Source: Clostridia bacterium
Lineage (GTDB): Bacteria; Bacillota; DTU025
DNA length: 39,018 bases
Assembly: GCA_034926675.1 (NCBI GenBank)
Contig: JAYFQW010000066.1
Span: 1 to 39,018 of the forward strand
Direction of reading: 5' to 3'
Shown: piece after piece, positions 1,108 through 6,120 of the stretch
Layout of the letters: every line of letters begins with the position of its first letter
Numbering within the stretch: the stretch's first letter is position 1
Position numbers and translations under genes: made by a program
Notes under the pieces: generated by a model
What the model was told of the DNA's origin: nothing
What the model saw: the letters and a program-made list of their open reading frames with translations, nothing else
Databases searched by the model: none

Positions 1108-1844
1108 TTTCGGCGCCTCTGAGTCAGAAGTTGCACGCCGTCTCTGCGAAAATCAGCGTCTTCGTCCATCCCCGTCTGGTGGAGAATGCGCAGGAGTGAT
1201 ACATTTCTCTTGGCAGCTGCCACCGTGGTTACGCCCTCGGACTGTATTGCACTACACCCGGAGAAAACCACATAGCGGCTGTCCTTGTTAATACGTCCAG
1301 GATCCTTCCTCTGGATTTACATCACTACTTAAGAGACCAACTGGACACAAGGCCCCGCCAAACCGCCAGCATCTGCTGTTCGCCGCCTGGGAGGATCTCC
1401 GCTTTCTGAAAGCGCCTGTTGTGGAGCACGGGATGGAGCATGCGTCTCGGCACGATGCGCAGGCTTCAAGCACGTTCTTATGTGAGGCAACATGTGGATT
1501 GCAGGGCTGCACGACTCCTGGTGCTGAGCGTCAACACTGGATGTCCGAGGAGGAATCTGAGGGGCTTGTGGCAAAAGGCGCAGTGCTGATCGGAACGTAC
1601 TGACTGAGAGAATCATTCGCATATGAACATAGGGTTCATGGAGAGCAGCGCCATTTCGTGCACGCTTTGTGGGCAACAGCAAGCAATCGGAGGTGATCAA
1701 GCAGCTCACAAAGCTCCCACAGTACATTATGATAAGCAGCAGACATGGCAGAACATGGGCTGGCCACGGCAGAAGCTGTTCCTCGCGAATCTAGACCATG
1801 GGTGCAGATGCCCGCGGTTGGTCTCACGAAGGAGTGCCCGTTGA
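1108..1844. other. Non-coding or decayed stretch
   Basis: No open frame here has convincing codon bias, a family motif or a ribosome binding site. Short frames on both strands overlap one another and look like chance or heavily decayed sequence. The only functional signal is the AAGGAG at 1829-1834 belonging to the next gene. Confidence 0.4.
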
Positions 1845-3239
1845 ATGCTCGAGAAGCGAACAGCGCTCGCTGTGGCGCTTAGCGCTGCCCTAGTGTTGAT
1901 TCTTTGCCCGGCGTCGATGGCGTCATGCGCGCGGAGGAATTTGGATCACAGGAAAATCTCCCTATCCGAGCTAGTGGAATACTCGACTGTGGCCATGAGC
2001 CAGGCTGTGCTGACTCTCCGGAGGCAACTGGACGCGTACGAGAACCTGACGTTTCAGTTCGCGGTCAATCCAGACCTAAATGCGCTCCTCGCTGATTACG
2101 CAGGTGGCGGAGACGCGAACCAGCTAGCTATTGCCAACCGCACTTTCTCGAACTACCTGGAGAGCTGGACGTTCGGCGATCAAGCCGTGTATGACGCGCT
2201 TTTCTTGGGTGAAGCCAATCGAGCGCGCAAGGCTCTGACCATGAGCGAGACGCTGCCTGCCGAGTTCATAGGATCATTCCGGGATTCGCAGGTTCACGAT
2301 GCTATTGTCAAGGCCGACGGCAAGCCTGTCTGGTTCGCTAATGTACAGGTCACCTCCATGGGATCAAGCTTCGTCGTATTGGGCAGACGACTCAAGTATT
2401 TCTCGTCCGGCAGGCCCCTCGGCGTTTTCGCCATACTGATCAGGCCGGAGTGTATTTGTCGCCTGATTGCCGACTACCTGGCTGAGAACTACTACTTTTC
2501 CGTGGGAACGGTTAGGTCCAGTTACCTCCTGATTATGGACGGCAGAGGACGGCTCATCTCCATTCCGCCCAACGAGGCAGACGGGCCCACAACCGAAGCC
2601 AATGCTCGCTGGGCACTGGCATGTACGTCACAGCTCCGGAAGACACTGCCCGGTTGCGCGAACAGTGGTTATTTCACTACTACACTGGGCGATCACGATG
2701 TTGTGGTCATGTATTCGTCTGTCGAAGGCACCGACTGGCACGTGTTCGTGCCGATTTTGCCTCGTAGGCGACAATTCGCGCCGCCTTTAACGTACGTCGC
2801 GCACGACCCGTGGGCTGTGGCGACCGGGGCGGCCGCGGCAGGTTTGGTGCAGATCACCATCATCATCATCCAACGCACGCACAAACGCCGAGCAGGTGCG
2901 CCTGCTGGCTGTATAGCGGACGCACCTCTCACTTCTGGTGGGGGCACGTATGCGAAGCTGCCGGAGTCAACCGGCTCCGAGGCTCATGCTCCCAAAGCTC
3001 AGGCAAAGCCTGCCTGGCTCTACATGCTGACGCCAAGAGAGAAGGCGATACTGTTCCTGCTCTCTCAAGGTCATTCCAACCGCGAAATAGCTGAACGCAT
3101 GTGCCTTGCTGAACAGACTGTAAAGAACCACCTGAGCGTGATGTATGACAAGCTCGGAGTGCGCGACCGTACTCAGGCATCGCTAATGGCCGTTGGGGTC
3201 GTGCTCTCCGACGAAGAGATGGACTTGCCGGAGAAGTGA
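1845..3239 (+). CDS. Membrane-anchored LuxR-type regulator with extracytoplasmic sensor
   Basis: The 464-residue protein has a signal-anchor helix at residues 5-26, an extracytoplasmic region at about 30-315, a second membrane helix at about 322-343, and a C-terminal LuxR/FixJ helix-turn-helix at about 396-458. The HTH shows the family pattern LTPREKAILFLL then SNREIAERM and KNHLSVMYDKL. The outer region is mixed alpha/beta, with a long N-terminal helix and a late WHVFVPI strand. This is the general pattern of dCache-type sensors in YesM kinases and AraC-type sugar regulators of Bacillota; that assignment is inferred from layout, not from a search. The start is fixed by AAGGAG at 1829-1834, ten bases ahead of the ATG. 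There is no receiver or kinase domain, so it probably senses outside and binds DNA while membrane-bound. Its targets are unknown. Confidence 0.85.
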   Translation: MLEKRTALAVALSAALVLILCPASMASCARRNLDHRKISLSELVEYSTVAMSQAVLTLRRQLDAYENLTFQFAVNPDLNALLADYAGGGDANQLAIANRTFSNYLESWTFGDQAVYDALFLGEANRARKALTMSETLPAEFIGSFRDSQVHDAIVKADGKPVWFANVQVTSMGSSFVVLGRRLKYFSSGRPLGVFAILIRPECICRLIADYLAENYYFSVGTVRSSYLLIMDGRGRLISIPPNEADGPTTEANARWALACTSQLRKTLPGCANSGYFTTTLGDHDVVVMYSSVEGTDWHVFVPILPRRRQFAPPLTYVAHDPWAVATGAAAAGLVQITIIIIQRTHKRRAGAPAGCIADAPLTSGGGTYAKLPESTGSEAHAPKAQAKPAWLYMLTPREKAILFLLSQGHSNREIAERMCLAEQTVKNHLSVMYDKLGVRDRTQASLMAVGVVLSDEEMDLPEK

Positions 3240-3410
3240 GTCCGCCCCGACCACTCCCCTTCAACTCACAACTGCTAGCCCCCCGATGCCTCAAATGCAG
3301 GCAACGTACATTGGTACCAACCCGAAGAAGCGCACGTTGACGCCGCGGCTAGCGGGTCTCGCAGGCAGCCTGCCCTTGGTTCACAGTGAATTCAGACATC
3401 ACGCAAGGAT

Positions 3411-3436
3411 TATAGTACGGTTCTCCCAGTACTATA
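3411..3436. promoter_or_regulatory. 8-bp inverted repeat, possible operator
   Basis: TATAGTAC at 3411-3418 and GTACTATA at 3429-3436 are perfect inverted copies with a 10-bp spacer. The AT-rich arms and the lack of a following T-run argue for a protein-binding dyad rather than a terminator. The neighbouring LuxR-type protein is a possible ligand, by proximity only. Confidence 0.35.
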
Positions 3437-3467
3437 GTAATTATTTGTAGGGTTTTACGGGAAGCAC

Positions 3468-3494
3468 TAAATTAGCCAAGAGATGTGTCGATCT
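3468..3494 (+). promoter_or_regulatory. Candidate sigma-28 (SigD/FliA) promoter
   Basis: TAAA at 3468-3471, exactly 15 bases, then GTCGATCT at 3487-3494. The consensus is TAAA-N15-GCCGATAA, giving a full match in the first element and 5 of 8 in the second. It lies about 120 bases ahead of the chemoreceptor ATG, where motility-class promoters are expected. Confidence 0.4.
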
Positions 3495-3613
3495 CTCCGA
3501 CGGAGAGCCTTGAAGGGGGCAGGCTCGCTGATGGCGTTCTTGGCACAATGAGTTTGTAAGGGAGGGCAGCGTGTCGGCCGTGTTGGCTTTGCCGATGGCT
3601 GACGCCGGTTATC

Positions 3614-5494
3614 ATGAAGTGGTTGATGAATATCAAAATCAGGTCGAAGCTCATGTTGTTGATAGTGCTATTGCTGCTGGCCATGGGGGGGCTGGGTTGG
3701 TTCTCGATCACTCGAATCGACCTACTCACTCACGACATTGCAGCAATGGGCACAAATCTTCTTCCTAGGACTCAAGACGTCCTCAATGCCAAGTACTATG
3801 CAGCCAGCCTCAGGAGGAATACACTCCAACACATCCTGTCAGAGACTCGTGAAGAAATGGATACGTACCAATCCAGAATAGAAGACGACGCAAAGCGATA
3901 TGAAAGCAACATGGCAAGCCTAAGTCAGCTCCTTACTACCGAGGCCGGGAGGCAGACGTACTCTTCGCTTGAGAGTACATGGAGGGAGTACCACAATATC
4001 ACGAACGAGATTGTATCGCTTTCTGAGCGCGGCATAACCGGGGACGCGAAGTCTTTGGTGCGTGGCAGGGCCCGCGAACTTGGGGAATCCATAAAGCAGA
4101 CTCTCGATGAACTCATTGGGCTCATAAACGACAACTGCGATGCTGTTCTCGCCGCAGCCCAGGCCAACGCTGCCAGAAGTCGAACCACTGTGCTCATTGT
4201 CATACTGGCGCTGGCTGCAATAGGAACCCTTCTTGGACTCTACTTGGCCAGAATCATTACATCTCCTCTCCGAGGTCTGGTCGACGTGGCCGAGCGTGTT
4301 GCCCAGGGCGACCTCACCTCCAGCCCCGAGGTTCGTTCTCGTGATGAAGTAGGTCTTCTCGCCCACGCTCTGGGTCAGATGGTGGCCAACCTCAGGAACA
4401 TAATCGGAAACACCACTGCTACTGCTCGCGACGTTGCAGCCGCAAGTGAGCAGTTGGCGGCTGGGGCAGAGCAGGCAGCCAGTGCCGTCAATCAGATATC
4501 CACTACCGTTCAGCAACTGGCGGCGGGCGCCGGCGAGCAGTCTAGCAGCGCTGCCACCACGGCCGAGGCTGTGGAGCGCCTCAGCGCCAACATCGATCAT
4601 GTATCCAAGGGCACTGATTCTCAGAAGGTCGAGATCGGCAAAGCTGGAAGGCTAGTGCTCGAGACGAGCTCGTCGCTTGATGACACCATGGCTGTTCTCT
4701 CGAACATGAGGTCTGTGGCCCAGCAGAATGCAGACGTGTCCACAAAAGGCAAGGAGTCGGTTGGTTCTGTGATGGCGAATATACAGCGCATCAGTGAAAA
4801 GACTTCAGTCGCCACAGATCAGATACGCGAACTCGACAGCCACTCTCAGGAGATCAGCAAGATCGTTGAAGTCATAAACGACATTGCGGATGAAACGAAT
4901 CTGTTGGCTTTGAACGCCGCCATTGAGGCGGCGCGCGCAGGCGAACATGGCAGGGGTTTCGCAGTAGTCGCCGATGAGGTGCGCAAGCTGGCCGAGCGGT
5001 CGTCAAGCGAAACCAAGGCCATAGAAGAGCTTATCGAACGAGTGGGCAGGGCAACCGAGAGCACGGTGGCCACTATCGAATCGCAGCAAGAGGAAGTCAG
5101 GCAGGGCAGGGAATTATCCAGTCAGGCAGAGGCGATTCTGAACGAGATAAACTCAACGGCCCTCAGATCCGTGGAGGAGATAGCGCGATTGGTCCAGTCG
5201 TCGACTCAACTGCAGCAGGCCAGTGAAGAGGCCGAAGAAGCTATCCGCGATGTGACTTCCGTCGCTGAGGCCAACGCTGCCGCTGTAACAGACATGACCG
5301 AAAGAATGGGCGAAGTGAAACGAGCCAGCGAAAACGTGGCCGCCATATCCGGAGAGACGGCTGCCGCGGTTGAAGAGGTGTCGGCTTCGACGGAAGAAGT
5401 GAACGCTTCGGTGGAGGAGATATCCACTTCTGCAAAGGCACTTGCAGACACGGCGGCGCGGCTTCAGACCATTGCGGCCGGCTTCCGGCTTTGA
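3614..5494 (+). CDS. Methyl-accepting chemotaxis protein
   Basis: The 626-residue transmembrane chemoreceptor passes external signals to CheA/CheW. Residues 12-33 form membrane helix 1. Residues 35-190 are a helical ligand-binding region of the 4HB type. Residues 192-213 form helix 2, followed by HAMP (about 214-266) and a long cytoplasmic coiled coil. The conserved hairpin tip ([20 protein letters not shown] and the following residues) lies near 425-445. Ala/Glu/Gln-rich heptads on either side are potential methylation regions. It ends in AAGFRL with no CheR-docking pentapeptide. The ATG at 3614 gives a normal receptor N-terminus but lacks a good ribosome binding site, and the frame has no other start back to a TAA at 3557. 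A sigma-28-like promoter lies upstream. The ligand is unknown; a sugar or amino acid would fit the neighbourhood. Confidence 0.95.
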
Positions 5495-5774: not shown

Positions 5775-5879
5775 GTTAGTGTCTTAGGTAGTGGTGTAAA
5801 TCCAGCGGGAGGAGATTAGCGAGGATCGACTCCGAGGGGAATCGCAGAAGCGATTTACACCACTTGACAAGACGTGACC
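5775..5879. mobile_element. IS256-type inverted-repeat pair without transposase (MITE-like)
   Basis: Two inverted 28-base ends face each other at 5775-5802 and 5852-5879. They share a perfect 13-bp core (AGTGGTGTAAATC) and an outer GTCTT block, 20 of 28 positions in all. The pattern resembles, from memory, Mutator-like (IS256 family) termini, in which a GTGTAAAT core follows an outer block. Only 49 bases lie between the ends, so no transposase is present. It could be a miniature element or an internal-deletion relic. No clear target duplication was seen. Confidence 0.45.
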
Positions 5880-6120
5880 TTCCCCCGCCGTGGACACACA
5901 GGGAACATAAGCAACGAGGACCTGTTGGCTGAGATCTCTGAGTATCTCAAGGCCAGGATGAGCGATGAGCGACTGCTGTTGCTGGACCTCAAGTAAGCGC
6001 AAGCAATCGCCCGCTTGGCATCGTCCCAGTCGCGTGAGGGCATTCCTCGCCCGGTCGGGACGGGCCTTCCCTGGTCTTCCTCCAGTCTCACCCTGTCGGC
6101 CATGGAAAGAACGACTGAAA

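Follow-up and report, generated by a model that had tools for sequence, protein, structure and literature searches.

The stretch of DNA analysed here (39,018 nucleotides; the window) carries a gene whose predicted product joins an outer sensor to a LuxR-type HTH across the membrane, and it raises the question of how such a protein would sense and what it would control. A sequence-only reading had described a signal anchor, about 285 outer residues, a second helix and then the HTH, and had proposed a sensor wired straight to a LuxR output. Our main reading, with a probability of about 0.6, is that the protein is a membrane-anchored one-component regulator, gated in its relatives probably by a solute-binding protein (SBP), and that the gene of a methyl-accepting chemotaxis protein (MCP) is most likely the target of the window copy. 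It is built on what was established computationally, namely the architecture, the predicted fold, the family, its SBP and importer linkage, the recurring dyads and the dyads upstream of the MCP gene. The gene and the parts of its product are as follows.

1845–3239, + strand: transmembrane (TM) double-Cache/LuxR-HTH one-component regulator, 464 amino acids (ORF, Pfam, hydropathy, model)
1866–1922, + strand: TM1 or signal anchor, residues 8–26 (hydropathy; model helix 2–34)
1962–2762, + strand: outer double-Cache sensor fold, residues 40–306 (sub-cut-off Pfam match, model, Foldseek, VIA-align)
2814–2870, + strand: TM2, residues 324–342 (hydropathy, model)
2883–3002, + strand: low-confidence linker, probably disordered, residues 347–386 (pLDDT < 50; poorly conserved in alignment A1)
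3027–3191, + strand: LuxR/NarL-type HTH, residues 395–449 (GerE, E 3e-18; recognition region EQTVKN)

The reading frame is open throughout, starts with ATG and is preceded by AGGAG. Two strong hydrophobic segments stand out in the Kyte-Doolittle profile (2.31 at residues 8–26 and 2.09 at residues 324–342), with about 297 residues between them, near the first estimate of the outer region. A third, weaker peak (1.52, residues 191–209) coincides in the model with one of the Cache strands. By hydropathy, all 12 family members have two predicted TM segments, six of them with some third peak as well, and the layout is the one first claimed for the signal anchor and second helix. From hydropathy and the model, the protein is predicted to be inserted in the membrane. 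The GerE HTH scores 65.6 bits in Pfam against a curated cut-off of 23.5, which places the protein among LuxR/NarL-type HTH proteins, and the profile matches of the HTH are to VraR, DevR and NarL. The hexapeptide EQTVKN is present in the HTH of 11 members and reads KQTVKN in the remaining one (G005). No kinase family is found in the protein by Pfam at E values up to 1 or among the best 25 of the 30 NCBIfam families listed, so it does not classify as a histidine kinase of the YesM/HptS type. Pfam also finds no receiver domain before the HTH, as had been claimed, and this separates the protein from NarL-type response regulators; the NCBIfam response-regulator models cover only residues 372–456, by their HTH ends.

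The structure of the window protein was modelled with AlphaFold2 from a seven-sequence alignment (mean pLDDT 74.2, pTM 0.56). Over residues 41–310, the ten-residue blocks average a pLDDT of 73–92, with one block at 57. The predicted double-Cache fold spans residues 33–311 approximately and consists of two PAS-like modules on a long N-terminal helix, situated between the two TM segments, which is the arrangement of the double-Cache superfamily. Foldseek matches the outer domain to the ectodomain of a sensor kinase (8w7p, E 8e-9), and the best match with VIA-align is Mlp24 (6ios, Z 19.2, 226 residues, 2.7 Å). Both chemoreceptors and histidine kinases contribute Cache ectodomains to the fold matches of the outer region. 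When the protein or profile A1 was searched against PDB sequences, HTH relatives were returned and no credible relative of the sensor; the sensor was assigned through the fold search. Pfam dCache_1 (PF02743) matches residues 53–302 with an E value of 2e-5, at 24.7 bits and under the 45-bit gathering cut-off; the protein is described here as a double-Cache fold and is not filed as a curated dCache_1 member. The dCache domain that the sequence-only reading had suggested looking for in residues 30–320 is supported by the model together with this match, and the original proposal stands in its two essentials, as two TM segments are predicted and the outer part resembles a known sensor fold.

A paralog is present in the same genome on contig C7 (44% identity, E 7e-109). 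Counting of the architecture, as the sequence-only reading had suggested, gave 12 distinct members (the window copy, C7, G059, G005, G001, G008, G011, G009, L022, L024, L026 and L028), with L023 counted as G001 and L025 as G009. The hosts are uncultured Bacillota, among them Firmicutes bacterium UBA5388 (L024), and two Spirochaetes MAGs (L026 and L028). Among 101 relatives, eight genomes match at 1e-20, G031 in the sensor only. With profile A1 at 1e-25, at least 18 of 398 genomes of the phylum match when the best four candidates per genome are scored, at full length in eight (nine places) and in the sensor or HTH only in ten. Because the regulator and SBP searches of the phylum scored the best four or five candidates per genome, their member counts are lower bounds. 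In a contig search, sensor and HTH were both matched in six of the best 80 of 465 relatives, and only residues 335–463 in the other 74. The phylum of one spirochaete match was also searched (296 genomes, 1e-40) and gave no match beyond that one genome, so the family seems to be rare and patchily distributed in this phylum.

Several of the sensor-only matches are stand-alone Cache-type proteins with two TM segments and no output domain.

5455–6546 in L133, 5705–6805 in L135, 5766–6953 in L136 and 6181–7272 in L137: stand-alone 2-TM Cache-type proteins

By eye, their operons look like a sugar importer, a periplasmic binding protein, a YesM-type kinase and a response regulator, and an output-less sensor beside a kinase is odd. 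A further stand-alone protein of this type in L021 scores 35.1 bits with dCache_1, under the cut-off.

What the HTH might bind was approached through the relatives. A Gibbs search of the regions upstream of the SBP genes of six loci yielded AGTAC-N4-GTAC. The importer promoter could be read in nine loci, and in every one of them it carries GTAC-N4-GTAC dyads, with 16 sites in total, two in seven of the loci and one in each of the two spirochaete loci. These nine loci represent about six independent lineages, and six of the nine had served to find the motif, so the count over the nine does not test it independently, as the window does. Close to the SBP start, over 5,400 bp of the nine loci, GTAC pairs occur 16 times with a gap of 4 and never with another gap between 0 and 12, compared with two gap-4 pairs in the remaining 132,848 bp of the same loci. 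With leave-group-out matrices, the sites take the top rank, or the top two ranks in loci with two sites, in eight of the nine loci, and the first and third ranks in L020. The dyads are predicted to be bound by this regulator on the basis of their co-occurrence with it.

The matrix used to scan the window was trained on the relatives and the C7 locus, with the window excluded. It identifies the following features.

3306–3317, unstranded: predicted operator GTAC-ATTG-GTAC, second-best matrix match of the window, 15.1 bits
3411–3440, unstranded: predicted operator cluster, in which a TATAGTAC-N10-GTACTATA dyad (3411–3436) overlaps the best matrix match

The best match is GTAC-TATA-GTAA at 3429–3440 (18.0 bits), and the third in the whole 39 kb reaches only 9.4 bits and lies elsewhere. 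Both top matches are situated inside the 374-bp gap between the regulator and the MCP gene, and none of 3,000 dinucleotide shuffles of this gap reaches either 15.1 or 18.0. Among 1,293,228 background positions, some of which had been fetched because they hold a dyad, two reach 15.1 and one reaches 18.0. When up to three mismatches are allowed, the strict dyad at 3411–3436 has an expectation of 0.00 in window shuffles; when up to two are allowed, the 3.38-Mb genome contains no second site of this kind. The window sites do deviate from those of the relatives: a GTAC half of one of them is mismatched, and the strict dyad has a gap of 10 bp, not 4. The place near 3411 where the sequence-only reading had suggested testing DNA binding coincides with this dyad, and both the site and the direct wiring of sensor to LuxR output now have family-wide evidence behind them. 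The genome contains 12 exact GTAC-N4-GTAC dyads, two before the C7 SBP gene, one in the window (3306–3317), seven inside ORFs and two between ORFs by our own ORF calls. A control pattern gives 74 sites against these 12, and GTAC is therefore rare in this genome. A promoter and terminator scan of 1600–3700 found nothing above chance.

The gene downstream of these sites is the likely target.

3614–5494, + strand: methyl-accepting chemotaxis protein, likely target gene, 626 amino acids (Pfam 4HB_MCP_1, HAMP and MCPsignal; predicted operators upstream)

Judged from the position of the predicted operators, the window copy would be an orphan paralog that most likely controls this gene. Seven related MCPs, at 23–34% identity in the sensor, were found in five of 13 other genomes searched. 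None has a good site nearby (best matrix score 8.0), so the link to the MCP is seen once. An inverted-arm repeat, TGGTGTAAATC / GATTTACACCA, is present at 5775–5880 and has 24 matches in its own genome including this copy, like the ends of mobile elements. A 39-bp repeat end with 85% identity lies at 1303–1341 in the opposite orientation. As two such repeat ends flank the regulator and the MCP gene, the pair may have come as one piece.

The same type of dyad is present at the window and C7 loci, and the two could form one regulon, in which either the window copy or its C7 paralog reads the dyads at both and the MCP is the chemotaxis arm. The HTHs of the two proteins are very similar and EQTVKN is present in both, which favors this arrangement. 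The proteins are, however, only 43–44% identical overall, and occupancy of the sites is not assigned to either protein. We regard a shared regulon as a genuine possibility that falls short of being probable, and keep to control of the MCP gene by the window copy.

The neighborhood of the gene in relatives bears on how the sensor might receive its signal. The SBP gene is the next gene on one side in nine of the 12 members (G059, G005, G001, G011, G009, L024, L026, L028 and G008, where it is cut by the contig end). The C7 paralog adjoins the last gene of the importer operon, with the SBP gene four genes away, and in L022 the regulator gene ends with the contig. The proposal of a sensor wired straight to its output is refined by this linkage, as an SBP gene or importer operon adjoins the regulator gene in 10 of 12 members and the regulator may not sense alone. 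For the window copy, the MCP gene lies downstream, 1.8 kb remain upstream to the contig end, and there is no SBP gene in view. The single close SBP of this genome is on C7, and no second SBP above 33% identity was found there. The SBPs of relatives are conserved, of AfuA class and 64–76% identical to that of C7. Their closest solved relatives are of AfuA type (4r72 and 8x1a), a putative AEP-binding protein (4r6y) and a pyridoxal-phosphate-binding protein (6wce). The importer genes follow the order SBP, ATPase, fused permease and second ATPase, and the names that they match best are phosphonate-, polyamine- or iron-type, each under its naming cut-off. AEP was considered as the substrate; the SBP, permease and ATPases score well under the NCBIfam AEP cut-offs, and no substrate is claimed.

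Among the 398 genomes, seven have an SBP of at least 64% identity, and all seven are within the eight that have a full-length regulator. The eighth is G365, where a contig end truncates the regulator and the genome search gave no close SBP. When 137 ORFs of at least 100 amino acids from 11 loci were compared, only the regulator, SBP, permease and ATPases recurred in two or more lineages. The loci of G001 and G005 are informative because the regulator and a dedicated SBP (64–67% identical to the C7 SBP) lie next to an importer with another SBP of its own. The SBP and permease of this importer are 89–90% identical to those of G004, and its first ATPase 71–77%, whereas its permease is only 55–59% identical to the importers of other regulator loci. 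In G004, neither a regulator match nor, in the stretch read, a dyad was found, whereas G001 and G005 have the regulator, the dedicated second SBP and dyads. The regulators and dedicated SBPs of G001, G005 and G008 are closer to each other than to the rest. This arrangement argues for the regulator and dedicated SBP being a functional pair, by analogy with CuaD and CuaSR, and is not proof of it. In G319 (L148, 3710–8585), a regulator-less importer of the same class is adjoined on the other strand by an apparent MCP gene and a gene for a 980-residue protein, and the link of this importer class with chemotaxis may be wider than the window case.

In the mechanism we propose, the outer double-Cache domain between the two TM helices would take in the signal and pass it via TM2 to the cytoplasmic LuxR-type HTHs, which on their flexible linker would change pairing or DNA reach. 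Because the linker is long, a rigid push seems less likely than such altered pairing or reach. The HTHs would bind GTAC-N4-GTAC dyads as a dimer. In relatives, where the dyads sit in the promoter of the AfuA-class SBP and ABC importer, the SBP would probably act as co-sensor by docking on the Cache domain, in the way HptA engages HptS. For the ligand we guess at an organic phosphate or phosphonate, from the kinship of the SBP, and for the sign of regulation at activation.

Alternatively, the Cache domain could bind a small ligand directly, so that the SBP would merely be a regulated neighbor and the protein an ordinary Cache one-component sensor of the importer substrate. The best fold matches include the amino-acid-binding Cache domains of Mlp24, Mlp37 and PctA, the dyads in the importer promoter allow the linkage to be read as regulator beside target, and the window copy itself lacks an SBP gene. 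However, R-x-W-Y, which is part of the ligand motif of amino-acid-binding dCache domains (dCache_1AA), is absent in all 12 members. The dedicated SBP of G001 and G005, kept beside an importer of another lineage with its own SBP, also does not fit a simple regulated neighbor, and docking of an SBP on a membrane sensor is reported for HptA, for CuaD and, as likely, for CBP. Direct binding is on balance unlikely, and we prefer gating by the SBP in relatives.

ChiS is a hybrid sensor kinase, and proteins of the ToxR/CadC type have an N-terminal winged HTH, a single TM helix and a C-terminal outer domain. The HptA-HptS-HptR system of Staphylococcus aureus, which controls hexose-phosphate uptake, is similar to the present family in that a membrane sensor is read via a ligand-binding protein encoded alongside; HptA is reported to touch different parts of HptS depending on whether it is ligand-free or ligand-bound (PMC8774646). 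HptS signals as a histidine kinase via HptR, in contrast to the window sensor, which carries its own LuxR HTH. HptS is not among the 50 matches listed by Foldseek or VIA-align, which is uninformative on fold kinship either way. ChiS of Vibrio cholerae is also a membrane-anchored direct DNA binder activated by a periplasmic binding protein, CBP, likely by direct contact (PMC11856585). ChiS has a variant HTH of its own family, whereas the window regulator has a LuxR-type HTH and neither kinase nor receiver. In CuaD-CuaS-CuaR of Ruminiclostridium cellulolyticum, a second SBP that is encoded beside the sensor genes and is separate from the importer SBP takes part in the signaling (PMC10384115). 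This parallel applies to the suggested role of the dedicated SBP in G001 and G005, although the output of CuaD-CuaS-CuaR is two-component. An SBP gene beside the sensor gene, the trait common to HptA-HptS, CuaD-CuaS and CBP-ChiS, is found in nine of the 12 members, with a neighboring operon in a tenth, and not at the window copy.

The comparison with ToxR made by the sequence-only reading holds as an analogy. The co-component regulators ToxR/CadC and VtrA/VtrC also combine an outer sensor and a cytoplasmic DNA-binding domain in one chain, and a partner protein can join in sensing (PMC9214523). The comparison does not extend to membership of the ToxR/CadC family: those regulators have other outer folds, whereas the window regulator has two TM segments, a double Cache and a C-terminal LuxR HTH. 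Fusions of dCache_1 to transcription factors, with HTH or LytTR output, account for 300 of 15,569 dCache_1 proteins in Table 1 of PMC4822843, a table that gives no LuxR-type share of the 300. Unlike the window family, these fusions come without a described SBP pairing or operator in the accessible part of that source. Cache-to-transcription-factor fusions, membrane-bound regulators and SBP-gated sensors are thus each already known. A literature search over titles and the opening lines of abstracts, largely outside subscription papers, found no LuxR-type, membrane-bound or SBP-gated one-component case with this combination.

The regulator and SBP pair occurs in two phyla and with importers of different lineages. 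We tentatively suggest, at somewhat less than even odds, that it is a portable kinase-free module in which an SBP gates a membrane double-Cache/LuxR factor acting on GTAC-N4-GTAC, and that the window orphan has been rewired to a chemoreceptor. If so, uptake of one nutrient and chemotaxis toward it would depend on a single type of membrane switch, and the chain of SBP, kinase and regulator would be cut to two parts. The family would offer a LuxR-type factor at the membrane for which operator, partner and target gene are all predicted, and a compact case for how a Cache domain might drive DNA binding without phosphotransfer.

It is improbable that the dyads belong to another factor and that the true target of the window regulator lies elsewhere. 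The sites were assigned by co-occurrence, and genomes without the regulator do hold dyads elsewhere (seven in G004, 14 in G319 and eight in G003); the best matrix match in G319 (12.5) lies inside an MCP ORF. Against this, the importers of G319 and G004, whose SBPs match at 54% and 42% without a regulator match in either genome, show no gap-4 GTAC pair in the stretches read. The G004 assembly is 84% complete, and a regulator could be missing from it. Among ORFs of at least 100 amino acids, no other candidate factor recurs across lineages, and the dyads recur beside the orphan window copy, so we retain this regulator as the predicted reader of the dyads.

The flanking charges of the window copy obey the positive-inside rule at TM2 (four K/R after it) and break it at TM1 (two K/R before, four after). 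That the N-terminus is instead a cleaved signal peptide or lipoprotein signal, leaving the protein held by TM2 only, is the least probable of the alternatives: the N-terminus reads ...SMASC and those four K/R follow TM1, but by eye no such motif is present in the first segments of relatives, and the model shows one helix from residue 2 to 34.

Elsewhere in the window, a penicillin-amidase-like C-terminal piece (520–1107, − strand; profile positions 489–669 of 675) is apparently a remnant. A long run of catabolic-type genes occupies 6151–30723, with genes for an FAD oxidoreductase, amidohydrolases, an RraA-like protein, a CuyA-like PLP enzyme, an aldehyde dehydrogenase, a hydantoinase, a PfkB kinase, a KDPG-type aldolase, an IclR regulator, an ABC importer, a D-serine dehydratase-like protein and a DUF4127 protein. 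At the contig end, 37901–39016 (− strand) encodes a group II intron reverse transcriptase/maturase.
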